Origin: Parabacteroides distasonis ATCC 8503
GTDB lineage: Bacteria; Bacteroidota; Bacteroidia; Bacteroidales; Tannerellaceae
Assembly (NCBI RefSeq): GCF_000012845.1
Contig: NC_009615.1
Coordinates: forward strand, 2,803,501 to 2,867,500
DNA: 64,000 nucleotides
Direction: 5' to 3'
The translations under genes were made by a program, and so were the position numbers. The notes below the pieces were generated by a model. It saw only the letters and a list, made by a program, of their open reading frames with translations, was not told the origin of the DNA and did not search any database. Shown one piece after another: positions 13,583 to 58,369 of the stretch (within the stretch, counting starts at the first letter, position 1; each line of letters opens with the position of its first letter).

Positions 13583-13683
13583 GGGGATAAACCACAGGTC
13601 GCAATTGACAATGCTCGTTAGTTATTAATCTATGACTGAATTGAACTTGGAAGGATTTTTCTGCCGGACGGCAACGAAAAGGA

Positions 13684-13737
13684 TATGTTTTTAGCATTTT
13701 TTCCCGTGGTTGCAAGCAATACAAATCTATCCACGTC
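13684..13737 (-). promoter_or_regulatory. SAM-II-like riboswitch in the metK leader
   Basis: Read on the minus strand, CGTGG (13731-13735) pairs with CCACG (13705-13709) as P1. The loop contains GATTTG and ends TTGCTTGCAA, and an A-rich segment and GCTAAAAA follow (about 13688-13695). The order (P1, a GAUUU and UUGCAA loop, then GCUAAAAA forming the pseudoknot) is that of the SAM-II class, known from alphaproteobacterial and Bacteroidota met genes. Its position before metK supports SAM feedback. The pseudoknot was not computed. Confidence 0.72.
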
Positions 13738-13747
13738 AATTCATTCG

Positions 13748-56548: not shown

Positions 56549-57745
56549 TTAAAGCTTCAACTTTACTGTTTTCTTTCCGATTTGTATAAGATAAATCTCA
56601 CCCTTGGGTAGTTGTACCTCATAATCCATAGCTTCTACAACCACTGAATGCACCAAGACACCTAAGACATTGTAAACATTCACTCGCTCTCCGGTCGTGA
56701 TATTTTGTATCAAAACCTTATTATCCAACGTCGAGATCTTTATATCCTGTGGGTTTTCGATCACATCATTTGAGGTTACGGACAGGTCTTTCATCACGAT
56801 CTCCAACTTAGAATCCCTATCTATATTCAAATAAAGCAGGTCATTCTCCGTCACTTGCGAGGTTATGTCCTCTCCATTCAAAAGGATCGTATCTATCTTC
56901 CAGTTCGAAAAATATGTATTTTCTTCAGCGATATGAAATACGATGGTCTCACCCTTCTCAACATCGATGAGATAATCTTGTCCCGGATAAAAATGATTTA
57001 CAATGATTCCTCCATTTCCGTCATAAAGAGGGTAAAGCTGCCAAGCGAATGTTCCCCCTTCCAAGTTAACTCGCAAAGAAAGCGCAGGCTCCACATATTC
57101 CTCGCGGATGTTCCCGAAGTTAAGCCATCCATCCGCAAAGGTATAATCCCTCTTGCATCCCTCCGGGACATAAAGGGTACAGGTCTCATAGAGTCCCTTA
57201 AAAGAATCTTGTTTGCAACTTGGAGGAATAGATCCCTTACAATGCACTTCCCTCAAATTACTACATAGATAAAAGGATTGCGAGTCTAAAGACTTAACAC
57301 GACGACCCAATGTAATCGAGGTTAAAGAAGAGCACCCTCTAAAAGAATTAGCGATTGTCTCTACCGATACAGGAAGCTCTATATCCATAAGCCCAGAGCA
57401 ATCCTCAAAAGCATACCAACCTGTATTCACCAAATATTTAGGCAGTTTTATCGCACTTAAATTTGAACATCCCTCAAAAGCTCTTTCCGTAATAGCACGG
57501 GTACTTGTATTCTCAATATCCACTTCCCTTAAAGCATGCCGTATCAGCATAGCTTTCAATACAGCGAAATCTTTTTCCTCTAAACCATTCCCGCTAATAA
57601 CGATTTTCTCAGTTCGCTCAATTTCGGCATCTGTAAGCAAGTTTAATAATGAGCCACTTTCCTTCATTTCCACATAGGTTACAACTTGGGCTCGTATTGT
57701 TAAACACAAACAGAACCCCATCAATAGCAGTAAAGCCTTTTTCAT
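56549..57745 (-). CDS. BspA-like leucine-rich repeat secreted protein
   Basis: A 398-residue secreted protein with a signal peptide (cleavage near IRA-QV). LRR_5 (BspA/Treponema pallidum type) repeats run over about residues 70-200 (FEGCSNLSAIKLP, FEDCSGLMDIELP, FRGCSSLTSITLG). A beta domain (about 210-325) follows. The C-terminal segment of about 65 residues (DNKVLIQNITTGERVNVYNVLG...GEIYLIQI) resembles a type IX secretion sorting domain and the ends of the two giant proteins. BspA-type proteins bind host or bacterial surfaces. A structured RNA candidate lies in its leader. Confidence 0.88.
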   Translation of the reverse strand: MKKALLLLMGFCLCLTIRAQVVTYVEMKESGSLLNLLTDAEIERTEKIVISGNGLEEKDFAVLKAMLIRHALREVDIENTSTRAITERAFEGCSNLSAIKLPKYLVNTGWYAFEDCSGLMDIELPVSVETIANSFRGCSSLTSITLGRRVKSLDSQSFYLCSNLREVHCKGSIPPSCKQDSFKGLYETCTLYVPEGCKRDYTFADGWLNFGNIREEYVEPALSLRVNLEGGTFAWQLYPLYDGNGGIIVNHFYPGQDYLIDVEKGETIVFHIAEENTYFSNWKIDTILLNGEDITSQVTENDLLYLNIDRDSKLEIVMKDLSVTSNDVIENPQDIKISTLDNKVLIQNITTGERVNVYNVLGVLVHSVVVEAMDYEVQLPKGEIYLIQIGKKTVKLKL

Positions 57746-57803
57746 AACTTCTAACTCCTTATTCCAAACCTGTTCCCCTGTTCGGTCTTTTCATAAATAA
57801 AAG

Positions 57804-57884
57804 AAGCGTGAGAACCATCGCTTATCACTGCATTGAGGCTCTGGACTGCCCACCCAACAATAATAAGACAATAGTCCCACGCTT
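57804..57884 (-). ncRNA. candidate structured RNA with three-way junction
   Basis: On the minus strand AAGCGTG pairs with CACGCTT (P1, 7 bp), GGACT with AGTCC (P2, 5 bp), and AGAGCC with GGTTCT (P3, 6 bp with one G-T). At most one base is unpaired at the junction. CTTTTATTT follows P1, so the element could be an attenuator in the BspA-like leader (ATG 59 nt further) or a small RNA of about 90 nt. I cannot match it to a known class. Confidence 0.55.
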
Positions 57885-57951
57885 TATGATTGCATATAAT
57901 TCACCTTTAGGATAAGTATATAACAAGCACAAGCGCAGGAGCTACTTTCTC

Positions 57952-57997
57952 ATTATCTTGTTGGGTTGAAATTGTCCAGATTTCAATGCAAGATAAT
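57952..57997 (-). other. two-step hairpin upstream of the three-way junction
   Basis: ATTATCTTG (57952-57960) pairs with CAAGATAAT (57989-57997). Inside it TTGAAAT (57966-57972) pairs with ATTTCAA (57980-57986), leaving a 7-nt loop. It could be RNA or an operator, and no -7 box is found nearby. Confidence 0.45.
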
Positions 57998-58087
57998 ATC
58001 GAAACGCTTCTACGTTATTTTTCCAATACATCGCGAAGATCGTGTTTTTTTAAAACATTCGCAAAACAATCAGATTCTTAATGTCTC

Positions 58088-58305
58088 TTAGCCCTAAGAA
58101 ATGCCCTCGAAGGGTGAAAAATGACTTCTTAGGGCTAAAAGATAGTTTTTCAACCGTGAAAAGTGATTTCCTTGGCCTAGGAAGGGACTTTCAAGGCCGC
58201 GAAACCATTTCTTAGGCCTAAAAAGCCTATTTTCACCCTTGAAAAGCCATTTCTTAGGCCTAAGATGATTATTCGCGCCATTCAATCCCCATTTTTTAGG
58301 CCTAA
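58088..58305. repeat. alternating 21-nt palindromic array
   Basis: Six palindromes of the TTAGGCCTAA type are centred near 58092, 58133, 58175, 58216, 58258 and 58300, so 41-42 nt apart. Roughly midway between the later ones are palindromes of the TTTTCa...tGAAAA type (near 58154, 58196, 58237). The pitch is thus about 21 nt with two alternating unit types. The array ends 64 nt before the DUF6261-type ATG. Confidence 0.75.
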
Positions 58306-58369
58306 GAAGCCCTTATTCAGCAAATATCCCTAACTTAGAGAAGTTTTTAAACTCTAAATCAAATTTACC

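Follow-up and report, generated by a model that had tools for sequence, protein, structure and literature searches.

The window, by which we mean the whole 64,000-nucleotide stretch of the Parabacteroides distasonis ATCC 8503 genome analysed here, carries on its minus strand (about 57766-58009) the RNA leader of a BspA-like gene whose ATG lies at 57745. The leader is one copy of a family whose unit consists of two hairpins, HP1 and HP2, with three pairs of segments (i-l, loop1-loop2 and j-k) whose partners are complementary in any one copy and whose sequences vary from copy to copy. Our preferred reading, to which we give a probability of about one half, is that this family is a transcription attenuator, in which strand exchange between the two copy-coded hairpins would switch the leader between a terminator fold and a read-through fold. 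The parts of the window copy are listed in Table 1.

Table 1. Parts of the leader and the gene behind it, as positions in the window
Feature	Position	Strand	Evidence or remark
Degenerate -7 box (GATCTTCG; family TAnnTTTG)	58034..58041	-	Exact box absent from the window copy
Arm a, 5' arm of HP1	57991..58009	-	a-b covariation
Code word i, partner l	57983..57990	-	Covariation
HP1 loop region with CTGGAC (loop1), partner loop2	57971..57982	-	Covariation
Code word j, partner k	57958..57970	-	Covariation
Arm b, partner a or c	57931..57957	-	Covariation
Middle segment with TATATA hairpin; merely a short loop in many family members	57890..57930	-	
Arm c, partner b or d	57861..57889	-	Covariation
Code word k plus GGG	57849..57860	-	Covariation
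HP2 loop region with GTCCAG (loop2)	57837..57848	-	Covariation
Code word l, partner i	57829..57836	-	Covariation
Arm d, partner c (terminator-like HP2) or e	57804..57828	-	c-d and d-e covariation
Remainder of the T-rich run after HP2	57795..57803	-	
Small hairpin HP4, with e (GGGGAAC, 57772-57778) in its loop	57766..57788	-	d-e test
BspA-like gene, 398 aa, LRR_5 + DUF6383	56549..57745	-	Behind the leader

An earlier note on this DNA had proposed a compact three-way-junction RNA at 57804-57884, before a BspA-like gene. The RNA is real, but the noted segment is the last third of the unit and the proposed fold is wrong. On the minus strand that segment is structured beyond chance (-41.1 kcal/mol, z -5.2; none of 200 shuffles does as well), and the three complementary pairs are present (P1 AAGCGTG/CACGCTT, P2 GGACT/AGTCC, P3 AGAGCC/GGTTCT); folded as a junction they reach -17.6 kcal/mol, against -39.1 for one long hairpin, HP2, of which P1 is the base. 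The true unit is about three times longer than the noted segment and includes a second hairpin upstream, absent from that account. The note had named compensatory changes as the check on its helices and a lack of covariation as grounds for giving the RNA up: across 20 homologues P1 has two-sided changes in 3 of its 7 pairs and 96.4% of its cells paired, whereas P2 (85.0% paired) and P3 (69.2%) have none, in 0 of 5 and 0 of 6 pairs, so that P2 and P3 fall and the RNA itself stands. When columns are shuffled, 5 to 7 of 500 reach as high as the junction as given, a pass that it owes to P1, which carries the score. The T-rich run pointed out after P1 is indeed there and fits an attenuator or the end of a small RNA, and the long loops, suspected of holding a pairing site, contain k, loop2 and l, which pair with j, loop1 and i of the upstream hairpin. 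An RNA on the plus strand was rejected, the fold there being weak (z -1.6; 14 of 200 shuffles do as well).

Searched at the DNA level, the element has a second copy in the window's own genome, and 20 of 59 genomes, all of one genus, give matches, that genome being one of the 20. Placed side by side, these copies put the start of the conserved unit about 120 nt further upstream, with HP1, whose core is approximately the reverse complement of the HP2 core; RNAalifold returns one long hairpin of 69 pairs, with two-sided changes in 24. A covariance model, R1, trained on 20 Parabacteroides-type copies, scores the window copy at 236.7 bits over its full length, a match that holds by construction because this copy is a training sequence. 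In the window's own genome R1 has five matches with E of 1e-6 or lower; an antisense echo and one weak match come on top of these. It finds the element in 87 of 295 genomes and 58 of 183 genera of Bacteroidales (E 1e-3; the window's genome counted), and in 15 of 296 genomes and 9 of 140 genera in a sample of the phylum (E 1e-5), those 15 being the window's own genome, 12 others from its class and 2 from outside that class. One genus in another order of the class, our guess being Flavobacterium, has it in 17 of 61 genomes, and carriers of the CTGGAC class include Bacteroides fragilis, B. salyersiae, B. nordii, B. faecalis and Prevotella brunnea (29 loci). Since they rest on R1, all counts are lower bounds for distant members. 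Two sets were drawn for comparison: 96 copies (97 matches minus one antisense echo), and 154 elements from 97 genomes or records, with antisense echoes and duplicate loci removed.

The other check named in the earlier note, an existing Rfam match, led to no family for the element. Searched as a whole against Rfam 15 at gathering score, the window yields only a SAM-II long-loop riboswitch elsewhere (13681-13740, minus strand, 57.4 bits), and the element is without a credible weak match; 20 further loci yield four matches (three DUF805, one tRNA), none of them covering the element. IMG/VR gave 0 exact matches to one core pattern, which covers the CTGGAC class only; a phage-labelled GenBank contig, MT835917 (L036, 15126-15341), has a copy with an insert in the inner stem of HP2. 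Two tandem elements lie 169 nt apart on one strand in L101 (2493-3056), and the beginning of a second copy lies just downstream in L057. The literature searched, most subscription papers being outside it and PMC7366714, PMC9723704 and PMC2864571 being represented by their accessible parts, holds no such family, and we make no claim of novelty.

The helices themselves indicate the strand. Read on the strand of the leader, the 96 copies have G-U in large excess over A-C in b-c (259:19) and a-d (94:21), and likewise in the code helices (j-k 51:6, i-l 21:0, loop 5:1), which are almost entirely Watson-Crick. A strand-neutral DNA element would show both mismatches alike; the G-U excess thus demonstrates, at the level of sequence comparison, that the element acts as RNA and on this strand. 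TAnnTTTG, described as the -7 box of the phylum in PMC9723704, occurs within 80 nt upstream of 106 of 153 elements; of 1679 control windows, 91 have it. In many copies a small 5' hairpin of variable sequence, HP0, follows the promoter 30-80 nt before arm a; its covariation is weak (t -4.2, near the noise level of the scan described below). Directly upstream of the element the window has, at 58088-58327, an imperfect 42-nt tandem array built on TTAGGCCTAAGAA palindromes, and an allele, L033, near-identical to the window locus over about 1.3 kb upstream, lacks one 42-nt unit of it.

The arms were compared in duplexes, the question being whether those of one copy pair better mutually than with the arms of other copies; the segments were ungapped and cut from an alignment, A2, which was fitted to the long fold. 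In shuffles of the 96 copies that ignore relatedness, a-b, b-c, c-d, i-l, j-k and loop1-loop2 were each equalled in 0 of 2000 and a-d in 3 of 2000, while i-j, k-l, a-c and b-d had no signal (1350, 1998, 1987 and 1557 of 2000). A blind scan of 29 windows in 95 of the 96 copies, in which values weaker than t about -4 are noise (t for unrelated pairs goes up to +4.1), ranked the code helices highest (t -36 to -38), followed by a-b, b-c and c-d. A further partner of arm d is e, the loop of the small hairpin ahead of the start codon (-9.14 kcal/mol within a copy and -6.98 across copies; equalled in 0 of 5000 shuffles, again ignoring relatedness), an example being GTAGGCTC with GAGCCTAC in L076; the stem of that hairpin, HP4, is weak, with t -4.2 in a scan whose noise goes up to t +4.1. 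A comparison among relatives only (backbone identity 0.68-0.90, 93 of 96 copies) corrects in part for relatedness: a-b, b-c, c-d and d-e are each equalled in 0 of 5000 sign flips, and for a-d, which the computed long fold contains, the signal is gone (1344 of 5000). Every arm is matched to both of its neighbours, which indicates two folds, {a-b, c-d} and {b-c, d-e}; the arm helices and their mutual exclusion we regard as demonstrated by the aligned sequences.

In an alignment of 20 copies the code helices i-l, loop1-loop2 and j-k reach 95.9% pairing, with 77 two-sided changes against a shuffled mean of 24.7 (0 of 500), and all three are retained in nearly every copy. The loops change together, as CTGGAC/GTCCAG, CTCGAC/GTCGAG, CTGGAA/TTCCAG, CTGGTA/TACCAG or CGCCAA/TTGGCG. 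Among the 154 elements, none of the 105 same-genome pairs shares at least 80% of its code words (maximum 79%), and 31 of these pairs have backbones of 80% identity or more; of the 216 between-genome pairs that reach this backbone identity, 20 do share their words. The contrast of 0/31 with 20/216 has a one-sided p of 0.06, on pairs that are not independent, and is suggestive of divergence of the code within genomes. Individual pairs show more than the totals: L111 and L115, of one genome, have backbones at 0.99 and code words at 0.43, against 0.87 and 1.00 for L161 and L156, of two genomes; five copies (L176, L184, L187, L188 and L189; two families, another order) have identical words, and L108 and L115 have j-k in common and i-l not. 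The window locus and L033 differ within the element mainly in the code words, and the genes behind them are unrelated. In L009/L034 and in L014/L016, on the other hand, the genes differ although the words are nearly unchanged, so a code word is not simply tied to a gene. Two copies on one contig (L004 and L026; G025 contig 25) have the same code words about 3.5 kb apart, the upstream one being cut inside HP2. Matches of the code words to the fetched flanks (own 67, 12, 14 and 73; cross means 69.4, 15.6, 19.7 and 69.9) are not in excess, and a local DNA target for them was rejected on that count.

An ATG ORF of at least 60 aa begins 30-70 nt past the model in 62 of the 96 copies, and 34 have none so placed. 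By a crude test 43 of the 62 are signal-peptide-like, the figure for the other ORFs of these loci being 56 of 237 (p 6e-11). The Pfam scan covered 77 of 87 downstream and 46 of 55 upstream proteins; BspA-type LRR proteins make up 11 of the 77, the remainder scatter, and no common pathway appears among the scanned downstream proteins beyond their export-like character. In the genus of the other order one subfamily stands before a SusC/SusD/S9-peptidase operon, Pfam-confirmed in one genome (L203), and five more genomes have ORFs of similar size, with a longer spacer. A MauE-domain gene and a small DUF6520 protein lie beside the L203 operon in the opposite direction, and the leader spacer of L203 to L208 has a further conserved motif.

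What leads us to the attenuator is the T-run behind HP2 (at least 6 T in 9 nt after CGC), found in 90 of 96 copies. Mutually exclusive helices, which an attenuator calls for, are found among relatives in a-b, b-c, c-d and d-e, and so are the elements of an intrinsic terminator, in the covarying c-d stem and the T-run; a short-loop terminator scan left HP2 unflagged because its loop limit excludes this hairpin. We infer termination, the ON/OFF sense and a reason for the code as follows. In fold 1, a-b would close HP1 and c-d would close HP2, with the T-run right behind, and transcription would end. In fold 2, b would take c, the code words i-l, loop1-loop2 and j-k would zip up, and d, now free, would take e as its partner, within the small hairpin ahead of the start codon; no terminator would then form and the gene would be read. 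Distinct code words would stop one leader from answering the HP1 of another copy. In computed partial transcripts a-b forms first (0.75), then b-c (0.80) when k and loop2 appear, and at the end of d the values are b-c 0.80, a-d 0.64 and c-d 0.00. The shift from a-b to b-c fits the attenuator. Against it is that at equilibrium the full leader takes b-c plus a-d and the terminator does not form unaided: the long fold has an average advantage of 14.8 kcal/mol (range 3.2 to 30), and termination therefore needs HP1 to be held back by rate, by a protein or by another RNA. It is also against this reading that a-d loses its signal among relatives, that 34 of 96 copies have no ATG ORF at 30-70 nt, that the downstream proteins have nothing in common beyond their export-like character, and that some leaders stand alone or far from a gene (in the genus of the other order many copies are 200 nt or more before the next ORF), which attenuation in cis leaves unexplained.

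Two other RNA readings draw on the same helices. The code might serve recognition in trans, HP1 of one transcript meeting the same-code HP2 of another, so that a gene senses the amount of its own RNA; the absence of shared words in 105 same-genome pairs beside 20 of 216 between genomes, the divergence of L111 from L115 and the almost wholly Watson-Crick code helices are what one would then expect. We nevertheless consider it rather improbable: the set behind the p of 0.06 contains orthologues on its between-genome side, one molecule holds both halves and intramolecular pairing should win, and a separate HP1 RNA is not known. About as improbable in our view is a static, compact leader fold, its hairpins kissing through the three helices and acting in protein binding, mRNA stability or translation start, with neither switch nor termination. 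Such a fold would account for the retention of i-l, loop1-loop2 and j-k in nearly every copy and for the long fold being the minimum-energy fold in 95 of 96, but one fold cannot satisfy the full arms when b has two covarying partners (a and c) and c has two as well (b and d), nor does it call for a T-run in 90 of 96; a possible variant has different halves of b and c pairing with different partners.

Readings at the level of DNA fare worse. A mobile hairpin element (MITE- or REPIN-like, or a cassette boundary), with the RNA incidental, would explain why the window locus and L033 have nearly the same element before different genes, why L009/L034 and L014/L016 do so with nearly the same words, and why some copies (L032 and others) adjoin integrase or resolvase genes; the excess of G-U over A-C, the fixed promoter position, the fixed ATG spacing and the d-e helix all point to RNA function and make this very unlikely. 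The cores of HP1 and HP2 are almost the same sequence in opposite orientation, and their centres of 6-8 bp are identical and change in concert, as at a DNA inversion site where two inverted cores recombine. That process would yield hybrid cores, and the hybrid pattern has 0 exact matches in 59 genomes and 11 one-mismatch matches, against 23 for a reversed control; all fetched DNA, overlapping loci included, has 65 HP1 cores, 51 HP2 cores and 1 hybrid, which sits in a locus fetched by the hybrid search itself. With both orientations not found in core counts and hybrid search, we rejected inversion, which we hold to be extremely unlikely. No more credible is a guide of the bridge-RNA kind, its two internal loops binding DNA for a recombinase: the two stem-loops with programmable internal segments fit, but the fetched flanks match the code words no more often than in the cross comparison, the terminal loops covary too, which that model does not require, and no recombinase family is linked, the 46 upstream proteins scanned including 4 Phage_integrase and 1 Resolvase.

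The attenuator, our preferred reading, can be set beside systems already described: (i) Transcription attenuators are leaders with terminator and antiterminator folds, and the element resembles them in its leader position, its mutually exclusive helices, the T-run behind the last strong hairpin and the close gene; it differs in that its switching arms are joined by copy-specific code words, in that no leader peptide, ligand or regulator has been identified, and in that its downstream genes have no common pathway. (ii) ColE1 RNAI/RNAII and CopA/CopT are plasmid antisense kissing systems for copy control; they too have hairpins whose loops are complementary and have diverged in sequence among copies that share a cell, and kissing followed by extended pairing is plausible for the element, whose halves, in contrast, lie in one transcript and not on opposite strands, and which is chromosomal, multi-copy and placed before diverse genes. 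(iii) Bridge RNAs of IS110 elements have two stem-loops with programmable internal segments, as the element does; in the element these segments match each other, and neither a DNA target nor a recombinase partner was found. (iv) DUF805 RNA (RF03081) is in the catalogue as a cis-regulatory RNA and follows the element at a distance of about 35 nt in L058 (1700-1765) and L059 (1396-1464), with a further one at 2664-2732 in L058; it is a separate 68-nt family with no match to the element. (v) Rfp18, an sRNA of Flavobacterium psychrophilum linked to secreted proteases in PMC9723704, is likewise a structured RNA of the phylum, a likeness drawn from its description there and not from sequence.

Strong covariation and wide spread with no Rfam match are unexpected in so well studied a gut group, and the element precedes surface or exported proteins, such as BspA-like repeat proteins and, in one genome, a SusC/SusD operon. 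If the words set specificity, they would be ready-made orthogonal regulators. The family also raises the question of why leaders within one genome do not match each other. Tentatively, and aware that we would sooner bet against it, we suggest an RNA address system, in which each carrier gene would have a private three-word code in matching halves, kept in descent and replaced when the element is copied elsewhere, and self-matching within or between transcripts would decide whether that one gene is read. If true, paralogous genes would be telling self from non-self by means of RNA.
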